In this document: piece by piece, positions 9,625-38,130 of the stretch
Numbering within the stretch: the first letter of the stretch is position 1
Layout: every line of letters begins with the position of its first letter
Assembly (NCBI RefSeq): GCF_000337035.1
Contig: NZ_AOJL01000011.1
Location: forward strand, 1 to 64,000
Length of the DNA: 64,000 bases
From: Halorubrum coriense DSM 10284
GTDB lineage: Archaea > Halobacteriota > Halobacteria > Halobacteriales > Haloferacaceae
Direction: 5' to 3'
Notes under the pieces: model-generated
What the model was told of the DNA's origin: nothing
What the model saw: only the letters and a program-made list of their open reading frames with translations
Database searches by the model: none
Position numbers and translations under genes: made by a program

Positions 9625-9627
9625 TCA
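9214..9627. repeat. Diverged duplicate of origin-flanking DNA, copy 2
   Basis: Partner of 2084-2636. It carries CATACCGAGTGA (9219), CGAACCGAGTGA (9271) and CATACCAAGTGA (9371), three variants of one short word, plus the conserved islands listed for copy 1. It ends at the stop codon of the intact type-B orc, just as copy 1 ends at the pseudogene's stop. Confidence 0.75.
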
Positions 9628-10836
9628 CTCGATCCGCGCTGTCACGCCCTTCGGGAGCGCAATAGAATCAAAATCCCGAACAACATCGCCGACAATATCG
9701 AGGTCGACATCGAACTCGTACTGGTAGTAGTGCCCACCAGCCCGCCCCTCGTTTTTCATTTGCCGGTCGAGGATGCCGAGCATCGCCAGATCCGCGAGGT
9801 GGTCGTGCATACGACGACGAACGAGCGGGTCGACGTTGGAGCCCTCCGCGATACGTCGATACAGCGGGTACACGTCGCGGATCCGCGCCGGAGTCTCCTG
9901 CTCGAACGCGAGCTGTAGCATAGCCACGAGCGCGAGATGCCCGTGTTTCGTCAGCTCGCGCATCCCGTGTTCGACCTGACTCTGCTCGAGTTTCTCGCGA
10001 GCCTGATGGACATGCTCCTCTGTTAGTCGCTTCTCGCTGTTCGTCCGCGCAATCTCACCGGATTTATACAAGATATCCAACGCCTGCCGGGCACTTCCCG
10101 TGTCCTGCGCCGCGATAGCGGCACACAGCGCGATCACGGCGTCGTCTACCGCGTCGTCGTACATCGCACCGGCCACTCGCTCTTCGAGGATGGCGCGCAG
10201 TTCCGGGGCGTTGTACGGCGAGAAGTGAATCTCCTCCTCACAGAGGGTGTCTTTCACCTTCGGAGAGAGGTCATCGCGGAAGCCGAAATCGTTGCTGATG
10301 CCGATCACGCCCGGTTTCGCCTTGGAAAGGTAGCCATTTGAGCGGGCTCGCGGGATCTCGTACAGGATCTCGTCGTCGCTGCCGATATGGTCGATTTCGT
10401 CGAGGACGAGGAGGACTGTCCCGCCAATCTGATCGAGTTCCTCATACAGGATATCAAACACACGCTGTTGGGGATACCCGGTCGTACTGATCTGATCGTC
10501 TGCGGGTCGCAGCTGATTCACGAGGTTAACCGCAACTTGGTAGGACGACGAGAGGTTCGTACAGTTGAGCCAACAGACTGAGAGCTCAACATCGTCGTAC
10601 TGCTCCGTGTCTCGTTGTAGCTGCTTCAATAGATAGCGGGACACCGCCGTCTTCCCGACGCCCGTTTTACCGTACAAGAAGATATTCCGGGGTTGTGCGC
10701 CGTTAACGATCGGCTGAAGCGCGGCCGTGTACGTCGAAATTTCGTCCTCGCGAGCGGTAATCGAATCCGGCTGGTAATCCTCGCGGAGCATGTCCTCGTT
10801 GCGGAATATCTCCGTGTCCCGTGTGAACGTCGCCAT
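9625..10836 (-). CDS. orc: Orc1/Cdc6 replication initiator, type B
   Basis: This 403-residue archaeal Orc1/Cdc6 has P-loop GKTGVGKT (56-63), Walker [12 protein letters not shown] (D146/E147), an [11 protein letters not shown] sensor-1 segment, a SARQALDIL sensor-2 region and a C-terminal winged helix ([12 protein letters not shown]). It differs clearly from the type-A protein (N-terminus [17 protein letters not shown] against MGGPFDDLTETVF). The ATG at 10836 is the natural family start, with a TTTTATGGG promoter-like element about 25-35 bases upstream. Type-B repeats lie on both sides. A broken near-copy occupies 2634-3296. Confidence 0.95.
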
Positions 10837-13465: not shown

Positions 13466-13636
13466 TCACACCCCACGGAGTAACTCTTTCGCCTGCCCCA
13501 CGTCCTCCGGCGTGTTCACGCGCTCACCCAGCCGCACAGTCTCGACCTCGTAGCCCGCCCGCACCAACAGGTTCCCCTCCTCGCTCAGCTGGTACTCGCT
13601 CTCGGCCGACGGCCGGAGCAGCGCACAGGCATGGAG
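13466..13636 (-). pseudogene. 3' fragment of sugar nucleotidyltransferase
   Basis: The minus strand reads LHACALLRPSAESEYQLSE, then NLLVRAGYEVETVRLGERVN and TPEDVGQAKELLRG. This matches the end of the intact gene at 4934-5662 (HACALLRPSAEGEYQLSEAV, LLVRAGYDVETARLGERVNV). Two codons are missing in the VNVNTP segment. No N-terminal two thirds are present. It has the same orientation as the intact copy, so the two copies are direct repeats about 8.5 kb apart that enclose origin B and the accessory genes. Confidence 0.88.
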
Positions 13637-13926
13637 CCTGCCCTGTTCACTGAACGAGCCGCCCGCTGTAAGCTGTACTCCAGAGTACCACCGATACATC
13701 CTCCAGAATCTCTACCCTTATCACCCGAACCCCCTCCCCGTTTCTCACCCCCGATATTTTGAGAGCAACAATTAATTCACATTCTTTATTCGACACAAAC
13801 ACACCAATCGGACCGACTTCGCTGACTACCCAACACAGACTCACCGTGAGCTACACACAACAACACCCACACTCCACATCTCGAACCGCCGCCCTGAGCA
13901 ACGACGCCCTCCTGTGCCCCCGCTAA

Positions 13927-16311
13927 ATGGCCGCAACCCCAGAATCCCCCCAAACTGACGACGACCGCGCTGAAAACGACCAAGAAGACTCCTCTACCCC
14001 AGACACCCTGCCAGACGAGAAGTTCGGGCCCAGCACACGCGCTCGGTTCGAACCACCTAAAGACAAGCCCCAACGACGCTCGGCTTTTCGGATTCGACTC
14101 CCCATTATCGAAGACGAATTCGAAACCCTTCCGGACTACATCCGCGGGTGTATCACCCAAGTCATCGAAGAAGTCCGGAAGGAAACCGCCGGTGGAATCA
14201 ATCAGTTCGAAGTACTCCAGTACCCTGGTCCGGTTGGCTTAGAACTCATCTTGAGCATCGAGCCAAAACGGAATGACGCCCGAAGTACCAACCAGAGCAC
14301 GGTCGGCGATTTTGTCGACAGGACCCATGAGGCGGGCGCCAACAAACTCACCAAAGCGATTCAAAAATACGTTCCTGAGGAATGTACCGTTGAACGTGGG
14401 TCTCTCGATCTGTCTCCACTCGGTACCACCCCAGTCAACGTGTCTCGGCTTCATCTCCGTAAAGATCACGTGGTCAATCCCGTTGGCACGAGCGGTGTCG
14501 ACGTGCTCGCGACGACGTTTAACACACTACGTGAGCACTCAGTAGCATTCGTCTATCAAACACTTCTTAAACCGAAACAAGATGGCCAGTACACTGCCGC
14601 CGTTCGGCTTGCGACGTATCCACCTCAGTTCGTCTTTACCGGTCGAGAGGACTTCGTTAAGATCGCTGAACGTGGCCACCCATTTGATCTGGCGACGACG
14701 TTCGGCGCGTACAACCTCACCTCCAACTTCCGGGGACTCACTGACCGGTACTGGGAAACCGAGTACACCGAGAAAATCAACGGTGAATCGTTCGCCAGCG
14801 CAAGTTATACTGATGAAATGGTAACATCGCGCAAATCAAGATCGCAGGCACGGCGTGAAGCGGACCAAGTGAAAGAGATCGTACTTGGCAAATCCGATTA
14901 CTGGCACATGCTGTCTGCGAACGCAACGTGGGACACACTGCTCAAAAAAGAACTCAACCGCTATGCTCGATTCGATATTACGGGACCGTTCGTAGCACAA
15001 CTCACTGGCCTGGTTCGATTACGCTGGAAGACCAACCCGTGGGGGGTCGTTCCAGGGCGTGAACCGCCTAAGTTCCACACAGAAGAGATACTCAACACAT
15101 ACGGCTCAACAGCGCCAAACTATGGCGACAATGATGAGCTCATCCACGTCCCCGACGAGACGCTCGCAAACACCGGCAGCATTGCACACCACGGACACGT
15201 CCAGTCGATTGTTGACATCTTCACCGAAGGCGGCGATGAGATTTACGAAATCACCCAAAACAGCAAGTCGCTGCCGGATATCGAACTCCACACAGAGACC
15301 GGTGAGATTAGTACGATCCCGCTGACTGTTGACGCCTCATACGTCTCTGTTGAAGCTGAACTCCATAACAAAACAAAGGCGTCGACCACACTCGTCAACG
15401 CTGACCGCGCCTACGCCATGGGTCGGCACGTCATCTTCGTCTATGATTCACGAAAAAGCGCAAAACGGGGCTTTAGCCACCTCAGTCAGCCGTACAACGA
15501 CAACCTCTCAGACCGAGATGATGGCGGTGTTCGGCTGTACAACCGCACAAGGCCAGTGCGCTGTCCCGACGACCGCATTCCGGTGATGAAAGGCAGTACC
15601 ACAACCACCTGGGAGCTGTTTGGTCGCGACCGGATTGTCGCCCGCGTCAACGGCGAGCGTATCGCAGGCGGCGCACCTGGCGGTGACGTCGGTGAGTTCT
15701 CGTGGGACACCCACTTCTATCAGGAGGTCGACGGCGTCCACCGCGTTGAGGATGCAGACGGAGCGGTCATTGAGACGTACAACGAACCAGAGACGCTCAA
15801 CTCAGAGTGGACACGGATTCCGCTCCCACACATTCCCATCTGTGGCAACTACCTTCATTTCGCGACAGTTGCGTACCGTACCGGAGCGGGTGGCATTGAC
15901 GTCTACTCCGACTTCCCGGACTGGGATACGCCTGACAGCGCCGGCAAGATGAAGCGACATCGTGGCTGTCTCGAAACGTTCACCGAGCAACTCATGTGTG
16001 AACGCGAGGACACGCGCATCTCGTCGGGAGCACTCCAAACGTGGGCCCAACACTACTACACCGCCGCCTCAGCCCACGATACTCCACCGGGATCGATCAT
16101 CGTCCAAGCGCTCCCCGACGAGATCAAAGACGCGAAGAAAGGCGGCACCAACAACCGCAATCCGCACTACCCTGGATACGACTGGGTCATCCCCCCAGAG
16201 ATCGACACGCCTCACCGCCCGGGTGTTGAAGAAGGACTCACCGACCTCTCCGAAACGCTCACAGAGACGTCGGTAGCCGACGTCGAGATTGACACCGACG
16301 AGGCGGAATGA
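13927..16311 (+). CDS. Large unrecognised soluble protein (794 aa)
   Basis: I do not recognise this protein. It has no signal peptide or membrane segment and no visible P-loop. An acidic disordered N-terminus (1-50) is followed by an alpha/beta region. Several motifs recur in the next gene in the same order: SPLGTTPVNVSRLHL (163-177; next gene APLGNTPVPVHRLL) and PFDLATTFGAYNLTSNF (252-268; next gene PFDAFNLTTNREF). Near residue 450 SYVSVEAELHNKTKASTTLV and, further on, GVRLYNRTRPVRCP recall, from memory, a domain found beside HerA/VirB4-type ATPases of haloarchaeal plasmids. That is a weak inference. It overlaps the next gene by four bases (ATGA). Confidence 0.8.
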   Translation: MAATPESPQTDDDRAENDQEDSSTPDTLPDEKFGPSTRARFEPPKDKPQRRSAFRIRLPIIEDEFETLPDYIRGCITQVIEEVRKETAGGINQFEVLQYPGPVGLELILSIEPKRNDARSTNQSTVGDFVDRTHEAGANKLTKAIQKYVPEECTVERGSLDLSPLGTTPVNVSRLHLRKDHVVNPVGTSGVDVLATTFNTLREHSVAFVYQTLLKPKQDGQYTAAVRLATYPPQFVFTGREDFVKIAERGHPFDLATTFGAYNLTSNFRGLTDRYWETEYTEKINGESFASASYTDEMVTSRKSRSQARREADQVKEIVLGKSDYWHMLSANATWDTLLKKELNRYARFDITGPFVAQLTGLVRLRWKTNPWGVVPGREPPKFHTEEILNTYGSTAPNYGDNDELIHVPDETLANTGSIAHHGHVQSIVDIFTEGGDEIYEITQNSKSLPDIELHTETGEISTIPLTVDASYVSVEAELHNKTKASTTLVNADRAYAMGRHVIFVYDSRKSAKRGFSHLSQPYNDNLSDRDDGGVRLYNRTRPVRCPDDRIPVMKGSTTTTWELFGRDRIVARVNGERIAGGAPGGDVGEFSWDTHFYQEVDGVHRVEDADGAVIETYNEPETLNSEWTRIPLPHIPICGNYLHFATVAYRTGAGGIDVYSDFPDWDTPDSAGKMKRHRGCLETFTEQLMCEREDTRISSGALQTWAQHYYTAASAHDTPPGSIIVQALPDEIKDAKKGGTNNRNPHYPGYDWVIPPEIDTPHRPGVEEGLTDLSETLTETSVADVEIDTDEAE

Positions 16312-18305
16312 AACACATCGCAACGGGTAGTCATCCCGCTGCGCCGTGGTCTGCTGTCGAGCTCGTCACCACCAGCAAGTCACCAGCTGGATATCATGGG
16401 ACGCCCATCTCACGACTCCTCGCGCGGGTGATCCATCGGGCGCTTTTCGACGAGCATCTCGATGCTGTCACGTTGCTTGCGGTCTCTGGACACCATCGTG
16501 AGCGGTATCTGCTCCGCTCGCGATCGACCACACACTCGGACGCGAGCACTGAGACACTTGCCAGCATTGCCAACGATGAACTCCCACTCGAAGTCGGCAT
16601 CACGATTGTCGAGGTCGACCCAGCACCACTCGGCAACACACCCGTGCCTGTCCACCGACTGCTCACAACACGCGATCGTCCAGTTGATCGCGCTCGGACG
16701 TCGACGCCAACACCGTTCGAACAACTGCTCGAGATCGCCGCCAACATTCGGCCACATGCGATCCAACTCATCGTCGGTCGATTCGAGAGTGACTGTGTTG
16801 AGGTGAGCATCCGCATCGCAGACTTTTCACCGACTGTGGCCACCAACACGGCCGCGGCTGACGCCCACTATCATCAGGATGCGCCTAGTATTACAGCGCC
16901 CTTCGACGCATTCAATCTCACGACAAACCGTGAGTTCATCTTCGATCACGGCTGGGAACAGCATACAGAAACCCGCCTGTCTGGGCCACCCGCTCCGATG
17001 GTGACACACGAGCACGGAGCGGCTGCAGAAATCTCCACGATTGCGTCCGCTCGCACGCTCTCACGGACCCCAACAGAGTATGAGGCGTTGTTCTCTGACC
17101 ACCCACCTGCGGCCCCACTCACACCGACGTACGCCCAACATGGGGTACTTCCATGGATTCGGCTCAATACAGAACTCTTGCCAGAGTTCTGTGGGCTGCG
17201 AGAACAAACGTACTACCTCTCACCGTGGGACAAATTCGGTCGCGCACCACCACGGATTACCCCTCAGTACACCCTCCGGAAGCCAACGCCGCCGGCAGCG
17301 TCGCCGCCGCCATCGGCTCCCCTTCCGACTGCTGAGGAACTCGAGATTGAATCCTCACTTGGTCGGACTGCTCTCGAATGGGTCCGTGAACACGGTGGGA
17401 ACATCACCGACGACCACGCCAGTCCGTTCGAGGACTTCACCGCGGTGTACCCAGACCAGACGCATCGCTGTGTCATCTTAACGGACCCACAGTTTGTTCG
17501 TGGCGACCTGATTGCGGTCGCCGCTGACGTCCATCAGTCGTCAACAACCGACCGACTCACGGTAGTCACAGACGCAACCGAAGTTGCCGCTCGCGCACGG
17601 GATTGTCTCCAACAGCCGTTCATCCGCACCGACGGGAAGACACGACTGTACACCCAATCGATTCGACTACCGAAGACGCTTGACACGCCTGTCCATCGAC
17701 TGCCAGCAACGAGCGAGTGGGTACTCACGCCTGCGGGAGAGCTCGAATATCATCATGGCGGTACTGTGCGAGCACGCACTGCCCCTGATGAGGAGTTCAC
17801 CACGATCACGGCTGCGTTCCCGCAGGTCTCTCATCGTGATGGGCTCTTCACTGTCACAAACCCTGTCGACGGCGACCAGCGCATCTACAAAACCAATGAA
17901 GCATGTTTCGAGGCGTTCGAATTTGTCTACCCGCCAGCTGTCCCGACGTGGCTTACAGGCGGTCTTGAGTTCGCCACAGTTCTGACTATGAACGGAGACG
18001 ACTTCCGTGAATACCGGCCACAAGCCCGGTGGGATCGCCCACAACTCACGACTCGCGATCGGGACGCTGCGATCGAGTTTTTTGTGACGTATACCGTCTC
18101 AGATCCCGACCGCTCGCTCACCTACGCTGCGGTTGAATCTGCGTTTATCGCGTGGCTTCGTCACCAAACCACGGAGCCGATTGCCGGTAATTTCGCCCCG
18201 AGTCTGAAGTCTGCGTTCCCTGGAACGCTCTCAAGCATCCATAGTGACGACCTCGAAAACCGAACGTGGCGATACCCGTTTGAACGCGCACAAGCGTCAG
18301 TGTGA
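16308..18305 (+). CDS. Large unrecognised soluble protein (665 aa), diverged paralogue of its neighbour
   Basis: Function unknown. The start at 16308 overlaps the upstream stop (ATGA), so the two products are translationally coupled. It shares with the 794-residue protein the LGNTPVPVHRLL motif (108-119), an ITAPFDAFNLTTNREF segment (195-210), and later KTRLYTQSIRLPKT (equivalent to VRLYNRTRPVRCP). It is shorter, with a Pro/Ser-rich linker (PPAASPPPSAPLPTAEE) in the middle. No membrane helices, signal or nucleotide-binding loop are visible. A pair of homologous, coupled, differently sized proteins suggests two subunits of one complex. Confidence 0.8.
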   Translation: MKHIATGSHPAAPWSAVELVTTSKSPAGYHGTPISRLLARVIHRALFDEHLDAVTLLAVSGHHRERYLLRSRSTTHSDASTETLASIANDELPLEVGITIVEVDPAPLGNTPVPVHRLLTTRDRPVDRARTSTPTPFEQLLEIAANIRPHAIQLIVGRFESDCVEVSIRIADFSPTVATNTAAADAHYHQDAPSITAPFDAFNLTTNREFIFDHGWEQHTETRLSGPPAPMVTHEHGAAAEISTIASARTLSRTPTEYEALFSDHPPAAPLTPTYAQHGVLPWIRLNTELLPEFCGLREQTYYLSPWDKFGRAPPRITPQYTLRKPTPPAASPPPSAPLPTAEELEIESSLGRTALEWVREHGGNITDDHASPFEDFTAVYPDQTHRCVILTDPQFVRGDLIAVAADVHQSSTTDRLTVVTDATEVAARARDCLQQPFIRTDGKTRLYTQSIRLPKTLDTPVHRLPATSEWVLTPAGELEYHHGGTVRARTAPDEEFTTITAAFPQVSHRDGLFTVTNPVDGDQRIYKTNEACFEAFEFVYPPAVPTWLTGGLEFATVLTMNGDDFREYRPQARWDRPQLTTRDRDAAIEFFVTYTVSDPDRSLTYAAVESAFIAWLRHQTTEPIAGNFAPSLKSAFPGTLSSIHSDDLENRTWRYPFERAQASV

Positions 18306-18903: not shown

Positions 18904-21900
18904 ATGAACGACCGTTCGGGATCCAGACGTCTTGAAACAACTCGTCGCCGGGCTCTACAAACGGTCAGTGGTCTCACCACACTTGCCATCTTCAGTACTA
19001 GTGCTTCTACGGTCGCCGGCGACTCCGGTGATCAACAGTGGGTATTCGAAACCGGCCGGGTGTACTCCTCACCAACTGTCTCTGATGGATCTGTTTTCGT
19101 TGGGAGTCGTGATAGGAATCTGTACGCGGTGGAGGCTACAACAGGGCAAAAGCAGTGGGCATTCAGCGCGAACGATGCGATCCTTTCATCGCCGACAGTC
19201 GTCGATGGAGTCGCCTTCGTCGGAAGTCGTGATTCACATCTATATGCGGTAGATACTGAATCGGGCGAGCAACAGTGGGCGTTCGTCACTGGCGATGATA
19301 TCCTCTCGTCACCAGTCGTGGTCGATGGGTCCGTACTCGCTGGAAGCAACGATGGAAACCTCTACGCGGTGGATGCTGAATCGGGTGAGCAACAGTGGAG
19401 TTTTGAAACCAGTGGCTGGGTCCGCTCATCCCCAACAGTGGTTAATGGAACCGCCTTTGTTGGAAGTCTTGACAACGCCCTCTATGCGGTAGATGTCGAA
19501 TCAGGTGAACAACAGTGGCGGTTTGAAACGAGTGATGGGATCTCATCTTCACCAACAGTGAGTGACGGGACGGTCTTCATCGGCGGCCTTGACAGCAGGT
19601 TCTATGCGGTGGATACAAACACGGGCAATCAACAGTGGACTTTCGACACCGGCGACTTGATTAGTACATCACCAACAGTGGCCGATGGGAGCGTTTTCTT
19701 TGGGAGTGCTGACAACCGTCTCTACGCAGTAGACACTGACACTGGTACTGAACAGTGGAATCTTGAAACGGATGACTGGATCAATTCATCACCGACGATA
19801 GTTGCTGAGCGTGTCTTCGTCGGGAGTTCTGATGGGAACCTCTACGCGATAGATGCGAATACGGGCGATCAGCAGTGGACCGCTGAAGTTGGCACCGTCT
19901 TGTCATCGCCAACAGTGGTTAATGGAACCGCCTTTGTCGGAAGTTATGACGGGGGTCTCTACGCAATAGATACCGGTGGTAACGCCTCAAGTGTGGGCTC
20001 TCGTGCGATGCTTGGAACGTTAGGACACCACGATGATTGGCGCTATGCTGGCCAGACAGTTGACCCGGAAACTCGCAGTAACCAACGGTGGGTCTTCGAA
20101 ACTGGCGATTCAATTCAGTCATCGCCAACAGTCGTTGATGGGACTGCCTTCATCGGGAGCAAAGACGAGCACCTCTACGCAGTGAATGTCGAAACCGGTG
20201 ATCAACAGTGGGCGTTCGAAACCGACGGGTGGGTCAACTCGTCGCCGGCGGTGGTGGATGGAATCGACTTCTTCGGGAGTGATGACGGATATCTCTACGC
20301 AGTGAACGCCGAGACAGGTGACGAACAGTGGTTTTTCAACACTGGCGATCTCGTTCGTGGATCACTGACAGTGGCTGAGAAGACAGTGTTTGTTGGGAGT
20401 GCTGATCAGAACCTCTATGCGGTGGATGTAAAAACAGGCAAACAGCAGTGGCAATTCAAAGCGAACGTTGTTTCGATACTGCCGGTCGTGGCTGACTCGA
20501 CTGTCTTCATCACGGGTGGGTCTCTCTATGCGGTAGATGCGGAAACTGGTGATCAACAGTGGCAGTTTGTGACTACTGGGGGTGTCCACTCGTCGCCAAC
20601 AGTGAGGGATGGAACTGTCTTTTTTGTGAGTGGTAACGAAACCCTCTATGCGGTAGATGCGGAGACAGGCGACGAACAATGGGCCGCCGAAACTGGCGCG
20701 CCGATCAGGTCATCTCCAACAGTTGCTGACGGGACTGTCTTTGTTGGGAGTGCTGAAGGCACTCTCTACGCGGTGGATGAAGAAACAGGAAACCAACAGT
20801 GGGTCTTCTCGATTGGCGATAGACTGTCATCGCCAACGGTGGTTGATGATCTGGTTTTCGTTGGGAGTGAGACTGGAAATCTCTATGCGGTAGATACAAA
20901 CACGGGCGCTCAACAGTGGAGTTCTCCCACCGCCACGATGGGGCTTTCGTCGCCAATAGTGGTTGATGGAACCATCTTCGTCGGGAGTGGTGATGGTAAC
21001 CTATACGCAATAGGTTCTGAGGTTGAGGGCTCGAGTGATGACTCTCGTGTCCTGTTTGGGTCTCTGGGACACCACGACGATTGGCGGTATGCCAACCAGT
21101 CAATCACCATTCCAGCATCCGCCTCGTATCTGTCTACACTGCGGGACAATACCGAACTGCTCACCGTTGGTGGTGTTGGCATCGTCAGTGCCGTTGGTGG
21201 GACATATGTACTACATAAACGGAGCCAGAACTCAGCAGAAAACTCTCCTGATGAATCCAAGACGCAATCGTCTCCAACATCAGATTCTGAGACAACCCAG
21301 TCGGTGCCCTCCACAGAAGAGTCTGAAACCGACGGATCCGCAGATATCGATACACTTCGCTCCGAAGCGGAGACAGCCGTTGACACAGCCATCTCTGCCA
21401 GAAAAACTGCCAACTACACTGAGGCAGTCGACGCCTACAACAAAGCCCTCACTCAGTATCAGGCTGCCCTCAAGCAACTTGATACCGGATCCACGGAGAG
21501 GCGTACCACAATCGAGACCGCTATCGACTCAGTACGTACTGACTTGGAGGCAATCAAAGCCCGCAGTAAACAACGCGACACTCTCATTGAGCTGTTGGAC
21601 GCAGCTGAACAGAGTTTTCAGGTAGCGATTGTCGCTTATGTACAAGGAAGCCAAACGCTCGCTCGAATTCGGTTCCGTCAGGCACGGAATAACTTTGAGG
21701 AAGCCATGGCGATTCTCGAAGAAAGCGACGACCTGCTCACTCCGACTGTAGAAGTGAGCGTCCAACCTGATCGAGAGTTAGCCTCCACAACACTCAGTGC
21801 GTTACCGGTGATCCCCAAATTGGAAACGGAGGCATTAGCTGACGCTGGAGTCGAAACACTTGGTGATCTTGAGAGTAGCACCGAGTCGCCATGGACTCCC

Positions 21901-22074
21901 CCAACTGTCGAAACACTGGCCACCAACGGAATGTTGAACGCCGAGGCAGTTACGACACTGACCTTCCTGTCGTGGTGGAACACCACCGACAATTACGAGT
22001 TTGACACCCTATCAACAGTTTCGCGCCGACGCGATCAAGCCGACTACGGATTTACGCAAAGTTCAAATTCCTGA
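18904..22074 (+). CDS. Tat-exported double PQQ-propeller membrane protein
   Basis: This 1056-residue protein begins with a twin-arginine signal (RRRALQTVSGLTTLAIF). Sixteen repeats of about 38-40 residues follow, of the form QQWxFETGxxxSSPTVxDG ... VFVGSxDxNLYAVDxxTG, which is the PQQ/YVTN-type blade. They fall into two sets of eight, each closed by an LGHHDDWRYAxQ motif, so two eight-blade propellers are predicted. A hydrophobic segment (GGVGIVSAVGGTYVL) follows, then a Ser/Thr-rich linker, a helical coiled-coil/TPR-like part (TAVDTAISARKTANYTEAVD) and a C-terminal helix-hairpin-helix-like stretch (ALADAGVETLGDLESS). No PQQ-dehydrogenase catalytic residues are evident, so a structural or binding role is likelier than an enzyme. 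Confidence 0.85.
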   Translation: MNDRSGSRRLETTRRRALQTVSGLTTLAIFSTSASTVAGDSGDQQWVFETGRVYSSPTVSDGSVFVGSRDRNLYAVEATTGQKQWAFSANDAILSSPTVVDGVAFVGSRDSHLYAVDTESGEQQWAFVTGDDILSSPVVVDGSVLAGSNDGNLYAVDAESGEQQWSFETSGWVRSSPTVVNGTAFVGSLDNALYAVDVESGEQQWRFETSDGISSSPTVSDGTVFIGGLDSRFYAVDTNTGNQQWTFDTGDLISTSPTVADGSVFFGSADNRLYAVDTDTGTEQWNLETDDWINSSPTIVAERVFVGSSDGNLYAIDANTGDQQWTAEVGTVLSSPTVVNGTAFVGSYDGGLYAIDTGGNASSVGSRAMLGTLGHHDDWRYAGQTVDPETRSNQRWVFETGDSIQSSPTVVDGTAFIGSKDEHLYAVNVETGDQQWAFETDGWVNSSPAVVDGIDFFGSDDGYLYAVNAETGDEQWFFNTGDLVRGSLTVAEKTVFVGSADQNLYAVDVKTGKQQWQFKANVVSILPVVADSTVFITGGSLYAVDAETGDQQWQFVTTGGVHSSPTVRDGTVFFVSGNETLYAVDAETGDEQWAAETGAPIRSSPTVADGTVFVGSAEGTLYAVDEETGNQQWVFSIGDRLSSPTVVDDLVFVGSETGNLYAVDTNTGAQQWSSPTATMGLSSPIVVDGTIFVGSGDGNLYAIGSEVEGSSDDSRVLFGSLGHHDDWRYANQSITIPASASYLSTLRDNTELLTVGGVGIVSAVGGTYVLHKRSQNSAENSPDESKTQSSPTSDSETTQSVPSTEESETDGSADIDTLRSEAETAVDTAISARKTANYTEAVDAYNKALTQYQAALKQLDTGSTERRTTIETAIDSVRTDLEAIKARSKQRDTLIELLDAAEQSFQVAIVAYVQGSQTLARIRFRQARNNFEEAMAILEESDDLLTPTVEVSVQPDRELASTTLSALPVIPKLETEALADAGVETLGDLESSTESPWTPPTVETLATNGMLNAEAVTTLTFLSWWNTTDNYEFDTLSTVSRRRDQADYGFTQSSNS

Positions 22075-23148: not shown

Positions 23149-26100
23149 ATGAACTTACCAAGTCGGATATTCGCCGTGGGTGGTGCTGGGAAGGCAATCA
23201 CCTACGAACTCTTAGAAGCAGACTGGGTTCAGGAATCTGTGCTTCAGCCGCGCCGAAATCCGCGAACGCTGACCGTGACCGTGATCGACACGGCTGAAGA
23301 AGAAGAAAACAGAGATCTCGAACGAATCCAACAAATCCGGGATTCGATCCAAGAGACCAGAGAGCGCCTCCGAGCAGACGCGACACAGGAGGGCCGACTC
23401 GGCGAGATCAACATCGATTACCTGCCACTGACTCAGAACATCCAACTCCACGATCAAAACGATCTGATCGGGGCGGAGGCGGTGCCACGGATTGCGGCGG
23501 GAGTTGGCATCGACGAGGAAAATTGGTGGCTTAAACCTGAGTTCATTAACGAGAATCTCGACTTCGCTACCGGTGTTGTCAGGAAACGAGGACTCGGAAA
23601 GGGACTGTACTACAAATCCTACGCCGAAGATGATAGTGTCCGCACGTCGATTGATCTCCCGAACCGCGGAAAAGTCGCTGTCGTCGCCGGACTCGGCGGC
23701 GGTTCTGGCTCAGGGATCTTCATCGACTTAGTCAAACACCTCAAGCGGACGAAGCGGACCGCCGAGATCACCCTTTTCGGGGTGCTCCCCAACGACGAGG
23801 AAGGCGACGCAGAAAGTGCGAACGCACACGCCGTCCTTTCGGAGTTGGAGTACATGAGCCTCCAAGGAGAAGACCTGTTCAAAGACAGGATCCTCATTCC
23901 CATCGATCCGACTGGCTTCGGCGGCAAGAAAGGGAACCTTATCCAGAGTTCTGACGCACTTGTCGAGTTCGACAGGGCTGCGGTCTACCTCATCACCTCG
24001 TACTACAACATGATGGACATGGAGGACCCGTTCGCGGACACGCCCTCCTACGCACCCTTCATCATGGGTGTCCCGCAGGTCCTCCGGTACAACGTCGACG
24101 CTATCCAAGACGCGAAGACTGTCACCAAAGAGATTCTCAACGCGAAACAGGACGCATTAGAAGCCGAAGAGGACGTATACACCGGTGTCGACCGATTCCT
24201 CTCGCGAGAGTGGAGCCCAGACGAGATGGAGGGCGAACTCCACGACTCTGACCGGACGGATCTCGAGACCCGGCTTGATAACGTCTGGTCGCTCACCGAA
24301 CTCGACATCTTCACCGAACTTGAGTACGAGTCCATCTCTGCTTACCGCGAGATCATCTCGGAAGCCGAGGCCGAAACCGATGACATCCTCGACCGGATCA
24401 ACGTCATCGCTGGTTCGATTCGGGCGGGCACTGCGCGGATCGGTGATAACGAACAGTACGTCGATAGCATCGACAAGCAGCTGGCCGACATCATCGACAC
24501 GGAACTGAACCGTATTGCTCACCGCAAGGACCTGCTCGTCCGGCTCCGGTCGATCGACAACAACCGCGTTGAGGGGACGATCAGTTACTTGCTTGCTGTC
24601 GAAGACGAGGGAATCAACCCCGGCGTCCGCATCAATCGGTTGGAAGCGAAACGTGACGAGGTCGTCGACCGCCGAGATCGACTCCAGTCGGAACTCGAGG
24701 AGGCCGAAGCTGAACTGGAGACCCGCAAGCGGGAACAGCAAGACGAGGTTGACCGCCGGGTCGCAACGTGGAAGAACGCGGCCGAACCGCTATATCGAGA
24801 GTACAACGACTGCCAGTCGATGGCCGTCGAGGAACTGGTCGGTGACCTTCGGAACGGACTAGAGTCCTTCGCACGTGCTGTGGAGAACGCAGAGGATCCT
24901 GATCAGGTCGAGTCTGTTAACGACAGTGCTGTTCGGACGGCACTCGACGATATCAGCAACGAGTTCGACACTGTCGGCGTTGACACAACGGATATCGAAC
25001 GCCGGATTAACTCGTCGCTCGCGGACCTCGCAGACGCAAAGGAGTCGTTCCTCACGATGAATCAAGAGGAGGGAACGATTGAATCCATCCTCCCGTGGGA
25101 CTCCTCCAGCGAAGAGGAACGAAAGAAGGCTGAAAAGAACTACAGGCGCAAGCGCAGTCAGCTTGATGAAGCGGAGGTGTTCAAAATGTCGCGGGCGGGC
25201 AGCAATCTGTCGATTGAGGTCCAGTTCTCAGTCACCGAACTCAAACACCTTATTGAACGGGAGCTTGACCAGCGCCAACAGGAGATCATCTCGCGAACGC
25301 GCTCCGAACTCGATGAGCAGCACCGGGCGGCGATCGACGAACTAGAACGCGATCTTGAGTCGGGGGTCGGCTTCGACCAACTCACTCGCCAGTTCGAAGA
25401 ACTTGTTCGCGACGAGATTGTCGAAACGGCAGATATTGAGCGGCGTCGTGACGATCTCGAATCGGATCTGGAAACCGCAAAGGTCGAGTCAGATCTCTAC
25501 GATGCGACCGTCACGCTGTTTGAGGAACTAAACGGACCTCGGGACTCATTCTTGAACTCCCAAGAGTCCTATAAGCAGCTTCGTGAAGAGTACAACGCCG
25601 AGAAGAACTCCTCAGTCGCAACTGAGACCGAAGAGTACAGTTACGTCAAAACTGTTCAGCCAAACGACATCCTCCAACTTAGAGACGACACCGATATCGC
25701 CGAGAGCAAGATCTTCGACGACGAGACCGAACGGCAGCGACTGCGTGGTTCACTTGAGGAACTCGCCCGGAACGCACACAATCCCCGCTACACCGGAATC
25801 CGTCGGCGCCGGATCAGTGGCGACCGTGCGCGATACAACGAGATGAACATCGTCGTTGGCGTGATGAGCCGAGCGATCGAGCAGATCAACGATGTCGCCG
25901 ATCTAAAATCCGAGTTCCAGGGGGCGTACAATCTCGGCGCAGGCGGCGAAAACTACGCCTCCTTCCCGGTTGAGGCGGGCGGCAGTTGGGATGTCGGGTT
26001 GGGGATCTTCATTGATGGCATCTTCCTCGATAACCTCCGGGCGGAGATCGAAGCCGACGGCTACCGGAATGGGTACGAATCGAAAAAACAGTCAGACGAG

Positions 26101-26298
26101 ACCGATATTCTCGTCCACCACGCGTACGGTCTCGACAAGGGCTACTTCGTCAAACGTGACTCGGTGTTGAACCTCGAGCATCCCGACGATGTGGAGTTCT
26201 TCTTGAGGGATGAAGGCGATATCAAGGCCGACCTTCTTGATGAACACATCAGTCGAACTGACTTCACCGCTTCTGCTGATGGAGGCGAGGAGGAATAA
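23149..26298 (+). CDS. Giant tubulin/FtsZ-superfamily protein (FtsZl-1 / Tubulin_2 type)
   Basis: This is a 1049-residue predicted GTPase. The N-terminus (MNLPSRIFAVGGAGKAITYE) is the first nucleotide-binding loop, and GLGGGSGSGIFIDLVKHL at 181-198 is the tubulin signature G-box (GGGSGSG, residues 183-189). LFGVLPN follows, as in FtsZ/tubulin. After about residue 350 comes some 500 residues of highly charged coiled coil (for example RDRLQSELEEAEAELETRKR), then a globular C-terminal region. Length and layout fit the FtsZl-1 family described by Makarova and Koonin as part of a membrane-remodelling system. The ATG at 23149 is preferred over the GTG at 23131. The next gene begins six bases downstream. 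Confidence 0.85.
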   Translation: MNLPSRIFAVGGAGKAITYELLEADWVQESVLQPRRNPRTLTVTVIDTAEEEENRDLERIQQIRDSIQETRERLRADATQEGRLGEINIDYLPLTQNIQLHDQNDLIGAEAVPRIAAGVGIDEENWWLKPEFINENLDFATGVVRKRGLGKGLYYKSYAEDDSVRTSIDLPNRGKVAVVAGLGGGSGSGIFIDLVKHLKRTKRTAEITLFGVLPNDEEGDAESANAHAVLSELEYMSLQGEDLFKDRILIPIDPTGFGGKKGNLIQSSDALVEFDRAAVYLITSYYNMMDMEDPFADTPSYAPFIMGVPQVLRYNVDAIQDAKTVTKEILNAKQDALEAEEDVYTGVDRFLSREWSPDEMEGELHDSDRTDLETRLDNVWSLTELDIFTELEYESISAYREIISEAEAETDDILDRINVIAGSIRAGTARIGDNEQYVDSIDKQLADIIDTELNRIAHRKDLLVRLRSIDNNRVEGTISYLLAVEDEGINPGVRINRLEAKRDEVVDRRDRLQSELEEAEAELETRKREQQDEVDRRVATWKNAAEPLYREYNDCQSMAVEELVGDLRNGLESFARAVENAEDPDQVESVNDSAVRTALDDISNEFDTVGVDTTDIERRINSSLADLADAKESFLTMNQEEGTIESILPWDSSSEEERKKAEKNYRRKRSQLDEAEVFKMSRAGSNLSIEVQFSVTELKHLIERELDQRQQEIISRTRSELDEQHRAAIDELERDLESGVGFDQLTRQFEELVRDEIVETADIERRRDDLESDLETAKVESDLYDATVTLFEELNGPRDSFLNSQESYKQLREEYNAEKNSSVATETEEYSYVKTVQPNDILQLRDDTDIAESKIFDDETERQRLRGSLEELARNAHNPRYTGIRRRRISGDRARYNEMNIVVGVMSRAIEQINDVADLKSEFQGAYNLGAGGENYASFPVEAGGSWDVGLGIFIDGIFLDNLRAEIEADGYRNGYESKKQSDETDILVHHAYGLDKGYFVKRDSVLNLEHPDDVEFFLRDEGDIKADLLDEHISRTDFTASADGGEEE

Positions 26299-26303
26299 CT
26301 CCA

Positions 26304-27746
26304 ATGGACTCACCTGTCACGTTCCTTGAGGAGCACGGCGAGAAGTTCTTCCTCGGGGTGTACTTTCTCATCATGGTCGTTGTCGCCGGCCCGCTGTTCT
26401 TGACGCTTGGCGAGGCGTGGATCGCCTCTGATGTGTTCCGGCCGCTGATCCTTTCGTTAGATCCACTCTTATCGATTTCACTTGAACAGTTCTCAGCTGC
26501 GGTGTTCGGGATCTACCTCGGCTTGCTTGCGCTCATGACAATCGACCCCAAAAAGCGGGTCCAAGGTGCGCTGCTCTGGCTTGGAACAGGCTCTGCGCTT
26601 ATTGGACTGCTCTCTATTGGGCTCTTCATCCCAAACATCGATTTCACCGCCAACGTGGCATGGCTCGGTGCCGGGCTCGTCGGCGGAACCGTCGTCGGCG
26701 GCGGCAAACAGCTTATGGAGGTTCGAACAACCTCCGCACTTGAATTCCGCCGATCCGCGAGTATTCTGTTCTATTTGATCACTGCTATCGTCCTCGTCGG
26801 ACTGGTTGAGTTCCATGTCAATTTCCCGCAGTTCATTGACCCGTCGGGTGGCACAGTAGAAATCATCACACCGGAACCGACCATCTCAGTCGCGTGGAAC
26901 GGACTCACAACGAACGCTCTAATGGCTGGGGTGTTCGTTGTGACCCTTCGTCGGTTCGTTACCTACGACTCCTCTGAGAACTTCTTCGTGCTTGGACCGC
27001 CGGGGTCTGGCAAGTCGCTATTTTTGGTCGGGAAGTATCTCGCCGCGCTTGATGACGCAGTCGACAGGAAAAGCGACACGCCGCTAAACCCGAGCGGTGA
27101 CCTGATGGAGCTCGTCGGCCGACTCGATGCCGCAACCAAAAGCGCTGGCTGGGAGCTCGACTCAACGGGTGCGACGGAGGTAGAGGACCTACAGTTCCGC
27201 TTCGTCAACGGACGTGTCTTCCCGAAGAACATCGAGCTGTCGAGTCTCGATTACGCTGGTGAGTATCTCGAAGAACTTCCGGGCGCACTGATGAGCCCCG
27301 ACACCGAGATCGACAACTCTACGGTCCAGTTGCTTGCCGACCGGGTTCGAGCGGCGAACACACTCATTCTCGTGATCGACGTTGAGCGGTACCACAACAA
27401 CGAACCGCTCGGGATTGAGCCGTACTTCGACATCCTCGATTCAGCTGAAAACAAGGATGTCCTGTTGGTGGCGACGAAATCAGACATTCTCGCACAGCAG
27501 TTTGAGGATGAGCAAGCGCTTGACCCACACCAGTACTTCGAGGACTTCCGCCAGTACGTGAATGACACGCTCGTCGAAAATAACCAAGCAGTACGAACGC
27601 TCGTGCAAGACACTTCTGGTTCGGAAATCCATCCGGTGTACTACGAAACGACAGTGAACGATGACGGCGAACGCGTGCCGATGCGCGACCGGAACGGGAA
27701 CGTGATGACGGTCGGCTTTGAGGAAATGCTGGAGAAACTGGGGTGA
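26304..27746 (+). CDS. Membrane-anchored GTPase of the FtsZl-1-type operon
   Basis: This 480-residue protein has about six hydrophobic segments in residues 17-215, then a cytosolic P-loop domain. G1 is GPPGSGKS (231-238), G3 is DYAGE (D316, G319) and G4 is TKSD (391-394), preceded by LLVA. These make it a GTPase. The spacing from the tubulin gene (five bases) and to the next gene (six bases) shows one operon. In the published FtsZl-1 neighbourhoods a distinct GTPase and a membrane protein accompany the tubulin-like protein; this gene combines a membrane part and a GTPase part. It probably couples GTP hydrolysis at the membrane to the filament formed by the neighbour; that is inference. Confidence 0.82.
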   Translation: MDSPVTFLEEHGEKFFLGVYFLIMVVVAGPLFLTLGEAWIASDVFRPLILSLDPLLSISLEQFSAAVFGIYLGLLALMTIDPKKRVQGALLWLGTGSALIGLLSIGLFIPNIDFTANVAWLGAGLVGGTVVGGGKQLMEVRTTSALEFRRSASILFYLITAIVLVGLVEFHVNFPQFIDPSGGTVEIITPEPTISVAWNGLTTNALMAGVFVVTLRRFVTYDSSENFFVLGPPGSGKSLFLVGKYLAALDDAVDRKSDTPLNPSGDLMELVGRLDAATKSAGWELDSTGATEVEDLQFRFVNGRVFPKNIELSSLDYAGEYLEELPGALMSPDTEIDNSTVQLLADRVRAANTLILVIDVERYHNNEPLGIEPYFDILDSAENKDVLLVATKSDILAQQFEDEQALDPHQYFEDFRQYVNDTLVENNQAVRTLVQDTSGSEIHPVYYETTVNDDGERVPMRDRNGNVMTVGFEEMLEKLG

Positions 27747-27752
27747 CCACGC

Positions 27753-29471
27753 ATGTCAACACTACGCATTTACGATACGAAGGGGAATGCGTATTCCCCT
27801 GATGGGACCGCAACGGGATCAAACGAACAGGTCAAAGAGCTGTTTTACGGCGGTGTTCGACTGGCCATTCGGTCAGATCACCGACGCGAAATAAGCCTGT
27901 TTTTCCGCGCCCGCGAAACGCGGAACGCTCGCACGGAGCAGTTCTACGCTGTCTACTCCGTCGATGATTCCTCAACACCGCTCCAAGACCTCATCACTGA
28001 TCTCACAACACGTGTCGAGTCTGAGTGGGGGTATTCGATCGATGACTCCTCAGAAGAGATGCAGGTGTACCGGGACCTGAAACGCGGGAATACTGCTCTT
28101 CCTGGAGGCAGTACAGAACAGGGTATTCTCTCTAAACTCATCAGCTCTCGGCAGCCTGTGGTGGTCGGTGTCCAAGATGAACGCAACGCCATTGGCCTGC
28201 TCAGCGAGTACCTCGATGAGTACGATCAGGCGGCAATCGCCGACTCGGAAGACGCTGATGTGCTCTCAACATTTGATTTCGTCGTCACACCAAATGGAAC
28301 CCGCGGCATTACACCACTTGGCGAAACAGAGGCCAGATGGGAGTCGACGTCTCGGTCGCTCCGCGATAAGCATATTAAACAGGAGATTGCGTCAATTCGC
28401 GAGTCGGTTGAGACACTCTCACGCGAACACGGCCTCTCGAATGGGGAGATACGAGATCGAATCCAAAGTAGCGTTCCGGCGCTCAAAGCGTCGACGACGA
28501 GTTCCGACCTTAGAACAAGCGCAAGCGGGTCAGATGATGATTATCTGGTACCGCCGAAAGTTGGATTGTACGTAGCTGTTGGTGCTGCCGTCCTACTCGT
28601 GTTGTTTGCTGCGATTTACTTCGGCGTTTTCGGATTCATTGGCGCAACTAATGGCAGTGGGCAGACGTCTTCACAAGCTAATATCACCGGTGTAGTTATT
28701 GACAGCACGACCGGTAACCCGCTTAATTCTTCTACTCGCAATGTTTACGTTACCCTCAATAACGAGACTGGGGCCGTCGTGAAAAACGCGAGCCAACCGC
28801 AATATGCTTTCACCGTCTCCAAAGCGCGACTATCGAATTTGACACTTAAGGCCAGCGCAGATGGCTATCAGAACCAGACAAGGGATCTTTCAGGTGACTC
28901 TCGCGAAATCAATATCTCGCTTGTGCCCGCTTCTACAGATGCTGATAGTGCGACGCTTTCTCGTGTCCAAGGTCAGGTGGTTGACTCGACTAACGATGCT
29001 GCTATCTCGGATGCGAACATCTCTTTAATTGGGACTGAAAACAGAGTAGTTAAAACGAATCTCATTGGAAACTACACGTTCGAAGAAATTCCTCCCGGCG
29101 AATACACACTCTCTGTTACCGCCGATGGATACGTTGCCTCGGAAAGCCGTACTATCAGTGTGAATGGCACAACCACACAAGTTGACGATATCAACTTAGA
29201 CCCAACTGCCGCTCTGTCGATCTTGGTTACTGATTCAAACGCAGATGCTGGCGTTGCTGGCGCTTCTGTGTACCTCTATGACAACAGTACCAGGAAATCG
29301 GTCAACAGCAGTACAACAGATCAAGCCGGTTGGTACAATGTCTCTGATCTTGCGCCTGGAACATACGATATTGAAGCTAGGCCAGATGGCTACGATAACA
29401 AAGAAAAAACGTATGAGGTTAAGCCGGGCGCCGCTCGCGTGATTGAAATCACCGTAATAAGCGACTCGTAG
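27753..29471 (+). CDS. Single-pass membrane protein with carboxypeptidase-regulatory-like repeats
   Basis: This 572-residue protein has a cytosolic N-terminal domain of about 270 residues, without recognised family (STLRIYDTKGNAYSPDG...). One membrane helix follows (VGLYVAVGAAVLLVLFAAIY), then about 280 residues outside the cell. The outer part holds three beta-sandwich repeats of the CarboxypepD_reg/PEGA kind: GVVIDSTTGNPLN, GQVVDSTNDAAISDANIS with GNYTFEEIPPGEYTLSVTAD, and AGVAGASVYLYD with LAPGTYDIEARPDGY. Many N-x-S/T sites suit S-layer-associated glycosylation. It is the last gene of the tubulin/GTPase operon, and would link the cytosolic machine to the cell surface. Confidence 0.8.
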   Translation: MSTLRIYDTKGNAYSPDGTATGSNEQVKELFYGGVRLAIRSDHRREISLFFRARETRNARTEQFYAVYSVDDSSTPLQDLITDLTTRVESEWGYSIDDSSEEMQVYRDLKRGNTALPGGSTEQGILSKLISSRQPVVVGVQDERNAIGLLSEYLDEYDQAAIADSEDADVLSTFDFVVTPNGTRGITPLGETEARWESTSRSLRDKHIKQEIASIRESVETLSREHGLSNGEIRDRIQSSVPALKASTTSSDLRTSASGSDDDYLVPPKVGLYVAVGAAVLLVLFAAIYFGVFGFIGATNGSGQTSSQANITGVVIDSTTGNPLNSSTRNVYVTLNNETGAVVKNASQPQYAFTVSKARLSNLTLKASADGYQNQTRDLSGDSREINISLVPASTDADSATLSRVQGQVVDSTNDAAISDANISLIGTENRVVKTNLIGNYTFEEIPPGEYTLSVTADGYVASESRTISVNGTTTQVDDINLDPTAALSILVTDSNADAGVAGASVYLYDNSTRKSVNSSTTDQAGWYNVSDLAPGTYDIEARPDGYDNKEKTYEVKPGAARVIEITVISDS

Positions 29472-35433: not shown

Positions 35434-36606
35434 ATGAAGCTTGCAACAATCGGGGTCGGCAATGCTGGAAGCAAGCTTATCGACCAGATGCTTGAGTTTG
35501 AGTTCGAAACGGGTCGTAACCTGTGTCGACACGCCCTCGTGATCAACACCGCTCGGACAGACCTCGCCAAGCCACAGCATCTTGACGAGGACCGCCGCGT
35601 ACTCATCGGAGACACTCATCAAAAAGCCCGTGGACACGGTGTTGGTGGCGATGCTAAAATTGGCGCTGAGGTCGCTCAAACCGATATTGACGAGATCAGA
35701 CGCGTGTTTGATGATGTGGAAATACATGAAGTCGACGCCGTGTTAGTTGCCGCCGGGTTGGGTGGCGGAACGGGAAGCGGTGCTGCGCCAGTTGTCATTG
35801 ATGAACTTCAAAAGATGTACGATGAACCAGTGTACGGTCTTGGCGTGTTACCTGGCACGTATGAGGGTGGTCGTCCAGCCCTGAACGCTGCACGTTCTCT
35901 CCAATCATTCGTCACTAAAGTTGACAATTTTATTGCGTTCGACAACGACGCATGGCGCTCTCGCGGGCAGACTATCGAGCAGGGCTACGAGGAGATGAAC
36001 GAAGAGCTTGCAACCCGAATTGTTACGCTGCTTGCTGCCGGTGAAGTCGATGAGTCAGAGGTTGGCGAAAACGCGATGGATTCGAGTGACATTATGAGGA
36101 CACTCGACACGGGTGGTGTTTCATCAATTGGGTATGCCTCAACTGATGTTACTCCCGCAAAAGAAGGGTTGTTAGCCAACTTCAAACACGACGGTGAATC
36201 ACAGAGTGAGTCCACAGATGCCGCTAAAATCAAGGGACTTGTTCGACGCGCGACAAACTCACGGCTCACGGTGCCATGTAATGTTTCAAGTGCTGATCGA
36301 GCGTTGATTGTCTTTGCCGGGCCGCCAGATGTTATCTCTCGGAAAGGCGTAGAATCCGCCCGTGAGTGGCTTGAAGAAACAGCTGATACCGTTGATGTGC
36401 TTGCTGGCGATGATCCGCGACCTAACTCGTCGACACTTGCAGCTGTGGTGTTACTTTCGAACGTGACTGAAACTCCTCGAATCAATGAAATCCAAGATCA
36501 GGCCGTTGACGCACAGAATAAAATACAAGAACAGGATGCTGTTCGAGAACAAGAGATTCAGTCACTGATTACCGATGAGGATAATGATCTGGATCCAATT
36601 GTTTAG
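35434..36606 (+). CDS. cetZ: CetZ-family tubulin-like GTPase
   Basis: This 390-residue CetZ protein belongs to the archaeal tubulin-superfamily group that controls cell shape and motility in haloarchaea. It has MKLATIGVGNAGSKLIDQML at the N-terminus, RVLIGDTHQKARGHGVGGDA, and the tubulin G-box GLGGGTGSG (GGGTGSG at 110-116). It continues with VYGLGVLPGTYEGGRPALNA, IAFDNDAWRSRG and TLDTGGVSSIGYA. The C-terminal half (VPCNVSSADRALIVFAGPPD, then NVTETPRINEIQD) is typical. All nucleotide-binding loops appear intact. A Shine-Dalgarno precedes the start. It lies between a MacB-type exporter and a second CetZ gene. Confidence 0.93.
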   Translation: MKLATIGVGNAGSKLIDQMLEFEFETGRNLCRHALVINTARTDLAKPQHLDEDRRVLIGDTHQKARGHGVGGDAKIGAEVAQTDIDEIRRVFDDVEIHEVDAVLVAAGLGGGTGSGAAPVVIDELQKMYDEPVYGLGVLPGTYEGGRPALNAARSLQSFVTKVDNFIAFDNDAWRSRGQTIEQGYEEMNEELATRIVTLLAAGEVDESEVGENAMDSSDIMRTLDTGGVSSIGYASTDVTPAKEGLLANFKHDGESQSESTDAAKIKGLVRRATNSRLTVPCNVSSADRALIVFAGPPDVISRKGVESAREWLEETADTVDVLAGDDPRPNSSTLAAVVLLSNVTETPRINEIQDQAVDAQNKIQEQDAVREQEIQSLITDEDNDLDPIV

Positions 36607-36690: not shown

Positions 36691-38130
36691 ATGAAACTCG
36701 CGCTCGTTGGAGTGGGAGGGTGTGGGACCCGAGTTGTTGATCAATTTGTCCGGGCTGAACATCGTACCGGGCGGTCTGTGACTAATGGGAACGTCCTTGC
36801 GTTTCACACTGAATCACAGCCGTTTGATAAGACACAAACACTGACCAGCGACCAGCAAGTTCTGCTCGGTGACACTCACCCGGCAGTGCTTCGCCGCGAC
36901 ACAAGTCCGCCGGCCCCCCACGGTGAGCAAACTAGCCAGCCTCCGAGCGGTAGTGAGACACTGACATACACAGATGTACCCTCATCTGAGAGTGATCAAG
37001 CTACCTCTCCCACCGGTACTGAAGATTCCAGTAGTAACAAGTCGGACCCTGATTCGTTTGGCGTCGGGGGTGACCCAGATATCGGTGCGCAGGTCGCCAA
37101 AGCTGACCGACCAGAAATCCGCCGAGCACTTGACCGGATTGATGAAACAGACGTGACAGCGACGATGCTTGTGGCGGGGCTGGGTGGCGGAACTGGGTCA
37201 GGGGTTGGAAGCCTCCTTTTAGACGAACTCTCCTCAATTTATGAAACAGCAGTGTATGCCCTTGGCGTGCTTCCTGCTGGCAATGAGGCTCCAATCCGAG
37301 CGTTGACCGCAGCCCGCGGTCTGCAGACGTTCGTGCCACGCACAGACTCTATGTTTTTAGTCGATAATGAGGCCTGGCGTCAAGATAACTCTGCTATTGC
37401 CGATAGTTACTCTTCAATCAACAAGATGACCGTTGAGCGGCTTTTGAGTGTGTTTGGTACCGGCGAACGCGCTGGCACGCCGCTGTCTGAAATGCGGATC
37501 GATCCTGCAGATATCACACGTACGCTCAACCTCGGTGGAGTCTCAACAATTGGTCATTCAACGATGACTCTCGACACTCAAAGTGTTGGGCTCTTGCGAC
37601 GGGTTCTTTCATTGCTCCGTCGGTCTTCATCGTCTGTTAGCACACCAGTTGATGCAACACAGATTAAGACCCTGATCAGTCAAGCTGTCCAGTCGAAAAT
37701 GACCCTACCGTGTGAGATCACCTCTGCGGATCGTGTTCTTTTGATTCTTACCGGTCCCCCAGATACAATCTCAAGAAAAGGATTTGAGACTGGTCGGTAT
37801 CTCTTAGAAGAAAAAACAGAGACGGTTGAAGTTCTAGCCGGTGATGAGCCAGTTCAGAAGAGTACAGAACTCACAGCAACGGTTGTCCTTTCTAACGTAA
37901 CATCCGTTCCGCGAATTGACAACCTCCAACAGCGAGCCGTTGCCGCCCAGTCTGACCCTGACGCGGATACAAGCGTGGCATCATCAGCTCATAGTCAACA
38001 GTCCTACACACTGTCTGTTACCGATCAAAACTCTACTCAGTCGCATCGAGATACACAACGCACTGAGTTTGACTTTGGTGAAGCTACAACAGATCTCGAT
38101 ACGACAGACTCCCCAGATAATGAAACGTAA
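36691..38130 (+). CDS. Divergent CetZ-family protein with an inserted linker
   Basis: This 479-residue tubulin-superfamily protein has N-terminus MKLALVGVGGCGTRVVDQFV, G-box GLGGGTGSG (GGGTGSG at 165-171), YALGVLPAGNEAPIRALTAA, VDNEAWRQDNS and LNLGGVSTIGHS. The C-terminal domain (LPCEITSADRVLLILTGPPD, NVTSVPRIDNLQQRA) is also present. Compared with the upstream CetZ it carries an extra Ser/Thr/Pro/Glu-rich stretch at about 65-122, right after RVLIGD-equivalent QQVLLGDTH, and a longer disordered C-terminal tail. The insert sits near the nucleotide pocket, so its filament behaviour may differ. It is 84 bases after the first CetZ gene, and its end overlaps the TetR start. Confidence 0.88.
   Translation: MKLALVGVGGCGTRVVDQFVRAEHRTGRSVTNGNVLAFHTESQPFDKTQTLTSDQQVLLGDTHPAVLRRDTSPPAPHGEQTSQPPSGSETLTYTDVPSSESDQATSPTGTEDSSSNKSDPDSFGVGGDPDIGAQVAKADRPEIRRALDRIDETDVTATMLVAGLGGGTGSGVGSLLLDELSSIYETAVYALGVLPAGNEAPIRALTAARGLQTFVPRTDSMFLVDNEAWRQDNSAIADSYSSINKMTVERLLSVFGTGERAGTPLSEMRIDPADITRTLNLGGVSTIGHSTMTLDTQSVGLLRRVLSLLRRSSSSVSTPVDATQIKTLISQAVQSKMTLPCEITSADRVLLILTGPPDTISRKGFETGRYLLEEKTETVEVLAGDEPVQKSTELTATVVLSNVTSVPRIDNLQQRAVAAQSDPDADTSVASSAHSQQSYTLSVTDQNSTQSHRDTQRTEFDFGEATTDLDTTDSPDNET

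Follow-up and report, generated by a model that had tools for sequence, protein, structure and literature searches.

A tubulin-like protein, a membrane GTPase and a receptor-like protein encoded by an FtsZl1-type operon of Halorubrum coriense

The first 64,000 nucleotides of contig NZ_AOJL01000011.1 of the haloarchaeon Halorubrum coriense DSM 10284 (assembly GCF_000337035.1), referred to here as the window, contain an operon of three genes encoding a tubulin-like protein of the FtsZl1 family (protein 1), a membrane-anchored GTPase (protein 2) and a receptor-like membrane protein (protein 3). All three genes lie on the plus strand, and the intergenic gaps of five and six bases, verified from the open reading frame coordinates, bear out the tight packing described in the original prediction, which a model had made from the letters alone. 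The span given there, 23149-29471, holds for the core trio but leaves out an associated upstream gene for a PQQ-propeller protein, treated here as a fourth component (Table 1). The operon belongs to a known family and comes from the group in which FtsZl1 was first described: in the main text of Makarova and Koonin (2010, PMC2875224), the family is founded on Huta_2051, a haloarchaeal protein of 1051 amino acids from Halorhabdus utahensis, whose gene adjoins those of GTPases and kinases.

Protein 1 matches the Pfam family Tubulin_2 with 36.2 bits (cut-off 27; E 5.5e-9), while its score against the Pfam Tubulin model stays under the cut-off and no SMC family is matched in the Pfam scan. A profile built from 37 relatives retrieves from the PDB solely FtsZ, CetZ, TubZ and tubulin chains. 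In Foldseek, the AlphaFold2 model (mean predicted local distance difference test score, pLDDT, 84.8) is matched best by CetZ2 of Haloferax volcanii, with gamma-tubulin, CetZ1, FtsZ and others next, and the best 50 matches are all tubulin-superfamily chains or complexes. As modelled, the N-terminal domain has the tubulin fold; it carries the G-box LGGGSGSG at residues 182-189, in which GGGSGSG (183-189) agrees with the GTP-loop signature GGG(T/S)G(S/T)G, and the loop glycines are invariant across the 37 relatives. The model continues with a long helical or coiled-coil region at about 316-880 and an alpha/beta part with strands at about 900-1038. These results uphold the FtsZl1-type assignment and rule out, by Pfam, PDB profile search and Foldseek alike, the SMC-like or other coiled-coil ATPase named beforehand as its competitor. 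Matches of the coiled coil to GrpE, DUF6446 and ZapG fell below the cut-off and were taken as coiled-coil noise. CetZ, of the same superfamily, lacks a coiled coil and possesses a CetZ_C domain. In RefSeq, relatives of protein 1 are labelled 'tubulin-like domain-containing protein'. Short FtsZl1 paralogues of about 560 amino acids also occur, at L057 (3931-5613) and L058 (8158-9843), both on the minus strand and with no adjoining GTPase or receptor gene.

Protein 2 begins with at least four membrane helices, which precede the motifs GPPGSGKS, DYAGE (DxxGE) and TKSD (TKxD), all present as originally read. Residues G231, S235-G236-K237, D316, G319, E320, K392 and D394 are invariant over 18 relatives, and with Walker A, Walker B and a TxKD-type motif, protein 2 is the adjoining P-loop GTPase that characterizes FtsZl1 loci. 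Among 170 genomes of the family Haloferacaceae, this GTPase was found in 39, of which 37 also encode FtsZl1. The ratio of nonsynonymous to synonymous substitution rates (dN/dS) is 0.02-0.07 in the tubulin and GTPase genes; therefore, both are under purifying selection and maintained.

Protein 3 consists of a conserved cytoplasmic domain (residues 1-265), a single membrane helix (270-288) and repeats outside, which are recognized by Pfam as CarboxypepD_reg and modelled as CnaB/SdrD-B-like sandwiches, in line with the prediction of a protein that crosses the membrane once and bears three beta-sandwich repeats outside. Its N-terminal domain is modelled as a mixed alpha/beta structure (pLDDT mostly 75-93), and the Foldseek matches are dominated by the outer, pilin- or adhesin-like domains. 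A vWA fold was considered for this domain and set aside, as Pfam does not see one; owing to the dominance of the outer-domain matches, the model gave no assignable fold. The N-terminal domain is present in 22 family genomes, all 22 of which carry FtsZl1, each time immediately downstream of the GTPase gene. Compared with its two closest relatives, the window shows 92-98% identity in the tubulin and GTPase and 82-89% in the receptor cytoplasmic domain, against 37-48% in the outer part. In 24 pairs whose tubulins are more than 90% identical, mean identity is 94.7% for the tubulin, 91.9% for the cytoplasmic domain and 58.3% for the outer part. The outer part of protein 3 thus turns over rapidly relative to its cytoplasmic domain and the tubulin.

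The upstream protein combines a likely export signal, outer PQQ beta-propeller repeats, a membrane helix (752-770) and, on the cytoplasmic side, a domain of about 280 amino acids (775-1056; nucleotides 21226-22071) that belongs to no Pfam family, the only matches being weak ones to MIT and TPR. Of the family genomes, 13 carry this PQQ-linked domain, and 12 of these also encode FtsZl1. When 392 genomes of the order Halobacteriales were searched, the strong matches (E below 1e-40) fell in genomes with the compact operon described below in 12 of 12 cases, spread over seven genera, while four more, weak matches (E 1e-8 to 1e-5) came from genomes without the operon. The hypergeometric P of co-occurrence is about 3e-6 at the level of genera, genome-level values overstating independence. 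The strong matches include one in a genome of another, unrelated family (G283), where the domain again adjoins the tubulin gene. It could be argued that the unit is the tubulin and GTPase alone, with the third gene and the PQQ gene beside it by chance, given that the latter is located outside the operon, about 1.1 kb upstream, and that PQQ-propeller proteins are common. The PQQ-linked domain is not a common one, however, and its co-occurrence, its renewed adjacency in the unrelated family and the invariable position of the third-gene N-terminal domain next to the operon make this account highly improbable. Elsewhere in the genome of the window, contig C9 (L079) encodes a divergent pair of proteins with the PQQ-linked domain and no propeller (7837-8724, minus strand; 8873-10018, plus strand), the second of which has a different N-terminal domain that appears PH-like by eye.

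FtsZl1 was found in 41 of the 170 family genomes and in 41 of the 392 genomes of the order, and its loci fall into two main arrangements, compact and expanded. The compact arrangement of tubulin, membrane GTPase and receptor-like protein is found in Halorubrum, Haloferax, Halorientalis, Haloterrigena, Halovenus and a Methanohalobium plasmid, and a trio of similar gene sizes is present in Methanogenium and Methanosarcina. The expanded arrangement, seen in other haloarchaea, frequently comprises two GTPases along with a large third protein that in some cases is fused to a PQQ propeller, and some of these loci also hold vWA, Hsp70, GrpE, DnaJ and YtkA genes. In relatives, receptor kinases stand beside the operon, including PQQ-transmembrane-kinase and pseudokinase-transmembrane-beta-sandwich proteins in Halorubrum and a kinase-transmembrane-PBP protein in Halorientalis. 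The first receptor is followed in Halorubrum relatives by a second one, whose N-terminal domain is kinase-like, with Pkinase scores below the cut-off and, in the receptor of L043, no HxD aspartate. At three of four Halorubrum tandem-receptor loci, the outer domains of the two receptors match within a genome (Table 1), compared with 33-52% identity for the same receptor across species. In sequence, this looks like concerted evolution, as seen at four loci, while the window has one receptor. A gene for a secreted protein of some 260-290 amino acids stands immediately upstream of FtsZl1 in methanogens and in one uncultured archaeon (L099 3365-4141, L103 9154-9936, L104 690-1568); the L099 protein, the one of the three that was scanned, has no Pfam match.

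Table 1. Coordinates of the operon, its associated gene and related features
Feature	Position	Strand	Remarks
FtsZl1 (Tubulin_2) gene	23149-26298	+	ATG start, 1049 aa; assigned by Pfam, PDB profile search, AlphaFold2 and Foldseek
Membrane-anchored P-loop GTPase gene	26304-27746	+	480 aa; weakly DO-GTPase-like
Receptor-like third gene	27753-29471	+	572 aa
Associated PQQ-propeller gene (upstream fourth component)	18904-22074	+	propeller, membrane helix and cytoplasmic domain
Tandem CetZ tubulin genes	35434-36606, 36691-38130	+	low-GC segment, about 6 kb 3' of the operon
Kinase-like receptor, relative (L043)	3357-5540	-	outer domains matching neighbour receptor, 67-78% identity over the three loci
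Kinase-like receptor, relative (L041)	1924-4179	-	as above
Kinase-like receptor, relative (L045)	13537-15882	+	as above

The family described in 2010 and the locus in the window share an N-terminal FtsZ-like domain, a long coiled coil and a C-terminal part, a near-equal protein length, a membrane GTPase, and kinases at related loci, as far as the main text of PMC2875224 describes them. The original prediction treated the GTPase's own membrane domain as a departure from the described system; the domain is indeed there, but the same text states that archaeal FtsZl1-linked GTPases are membrane-associated while bacterial ones are not. The locus is therefore a member of the archaeal FtsZl1 branch, in which a membrane GTPase is the rule. 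A vWA gene, which according to the 2010 main text is found in the majority but not all of the predicted operons, is what the locus lacks in comparison: no vWA domain was found among the window proteins scanned. Its absence, also predicted, stands for this locus and its close relatives and does not extend to distant haloarchaeal loci, since plasmid-borne cousins in Halorubrum and Haloplanus carry the gene. Conversely, the receptor-like third gene, outer-domain turnover and the PQQ-linked domain receive no mention in the main text of PMC2875224.

Membrane remodelling, the role put forward in the original prediction, holds as the context-based hypothesis of the 2010 authors, which a reviewer, as printed in the main text, disputed in favour of transport or signalling. 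In its plain form, FtsZl1 filaments and the membrane GTPase would deform the membrane or form vesicles, with the third protein a mere anchor or envelope link. The joint presence of a tubulin-like protein, a membrane GTPase and membrane proteins speaks for it, as does the statement in the same text that all characterized superfamily members form filaments. Nevertheless, it leaves unexplained the receptor kinases and the PBP, PQQ and beta-sandwich outer domains beside the operon, as well as the confinement of fast turnover to the outer part, and we regard it as a possible but rather unlikely account. Because receptor kinases, variable outer domains and PQQ propellers are found in the context, sensing or recognition is at least as likely as remodelling.

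A second known comparison is with the bacterial DO-GTPase/GAP1-N2 systems, in which tubulin, vWA and HSP70 components are combined and which were read as biological-conflict systems (Kaur et al. 2020, PMC7159879). A coiled-coil tubulin, a GTPase that has membrane helices at its N-terminus and a conserved glutamate after DxxG, and an outer beta-sandwich membrane protein are common to these systems and the window, and vWA, Hsp70 and YtkA to these systems and distant haloarchaeal loci. By contrast, the window has one GTPase and neither vWA nor HSP70; paired GTPases with vWA and/or HSP70 are found at the distant loci L059-L077. Among these, the plasmid loci L076 (Halorubrum) and L077 (Haloplanus) encode a tubulin, GTPase(s), vWA and Hsp70, with GrpE and PQQ in addition in Haloplanus, and by analogy of composition they may be counted as archaeal counterparts of the bacterial tubulin/HSP70 conflict systems.

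If the operon belonged to such a conflict or defence system, the response to an invasion or a neighbour sensed by the receptor would come from the GTPase/tubulin assembly. The distant cousins, which join a tubulin, one or two GTPases, vWA, Hsp70/GrpE and YtkA/DnaJ in the published composition, lend this idea weight. So do the weak matches of 11 of the 18 GTPase members to the DO-GTPase2 profile and the genomic setting, which combines a patchy distribution with some plasmid copies of FtsZl1 and a segment of low guanine-cytosine (GC) content (0.49-0.58 at 1-52000, 0.65-0.71 past 52 kb). As judged from sequence, these features of the setting indicate a mobile or accessory locus. On the other hand, none of the DO-GTPase2 matches reached the cut-off (best E 0.004), and a genome search with the DO-GTPase profile returned nothing above it. 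No GAP1 match was found in the operon proteins, and GAP1-M was absent from 12 archaeal FtsZl1 genomes, with Corynebacterium glutamicum positive as a control; GAP1-N profiles were not searched genome-wide. Membership in the DO-GTPase/GAP1 systems was rejected on these grounds, leaving a resemblance in composition. Moreover, PADLOC gave no match to a known defence system, no effector domain was recognized and no match was found among phage records, on which basis a phage origin was rejected too. A conflict role of this kind therefore appears unlikely.

The reading favoured here, with a probability of about one half, is a receptor-controlled tubulin-like scaffold at the membrane that serves surface sensing or recognition. 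Protein 1 would assemble on the inner membrane face as a GTP-dependent scaffold, while the membrane-anchored GTPase would dock the scaffold and act as its on/off switch. Protein 3 would span the membrane as a receptor, engaging the tubulin/GTPase core through its cytoplasmic domain and some partner at the cell surface through its fast-evolving outer part, and the PQQ-propeller protein may be a second such sensor. Scaffold assembly would then be controlled by a surface signal, producing a local change in the membrane, envelope or surface organelles. Gene content, conservation, topology, the tubulin fold of the N-terminal domain, co-occurrence and the turnover of outer domains are observed, and polymerization, GTPase switching, physical coupling and the direction of the signal are what we infer here. 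A surface function is compatible, by analogy, with the only Tubulin_2 mutant phenotype found in the literature: in Synechocystis, mutation of sll0445 impairs phototactic motility, and the product co-fractionates with pilus assembly proteins (PMC9880817). Sll0445 is likewise a Tubulin_2 protein but is bacterial, with FtsA-like and DivIC-like neighbours.

Several points weigh against the receptor-controlled scaffold. The C-terminal tubulin domain and catalytic T7 loop are not assignable in protein 1, whose structural match covers the N-terminal domain (about 330 columns, with a high root-mean-square deviation), a limit also reported in the main text of the 2010 paper; polymerization and GTP hydrolysis are therefore unproven. 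Rapid ectodomain change is usual in secreted proteins and alone is no proof of recognition, and the window has a single receptor in the operon and no adjacent kinase. The three genes are also compatible with structural membrane remodelling without signalling. Finally, in agreement with the original prediction, no experimental work on FtsZl1 in any archaeon was found in the literature searched.

A more specific and very unlikely idea is that the operon is an archaeal machine for self/non-self or partner recognition, in which receptors act through the membrane GTPase on the tubulin-like scaffold at cell-cell contacts or in competition. It would account for variable outer domains that are kept matched between the paired receptors of one genome and differ between species. 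One example, by analogy, would be a role in haloarchaeal cell fusion, which is reported to prefer the same species (PMC5496957).

Predicted to have a role since 2010, FtsZl1 now has a testable archaeal shape, with a core of tubulin, membrane GTPase and receptor, to which a fourth co-occurring component and, at related loci, receptor kinases are added. Neither the third, receptor-like component nor the PQQ-linked domain that co-occurs with the operon was found in the available text of the papers compared, and the same holds for outer-domain turnover and matched receptor pairs. Halorubrum genomes with and without the operon offer natural comparisons, and if the receptor reading is true, archaea would possess a tubulin-type cytoskeleton under surface-receptor control.

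Besides the two CetZ genes, two orc1/cdc6 genes lie in the low-GC segment of the window, together with genes for a polysaccharide flippase, a sugar transferase and an S-layer-like PGF-CTERM protein (44183-47014); no tRNA was found in the window, so there is no tRNA-bounded island. Just 5' of the PQQ gene, two overlapping plus-strand genes (13927-18305) encode proteins of 794 and 665 amino acids, which have no Pfam match at E 1e-3 and are absent from the relatives' neighbourhoods compared. In addition to the tandem CetZ pair, three more CetZ genes are present elsewhere in the genome.

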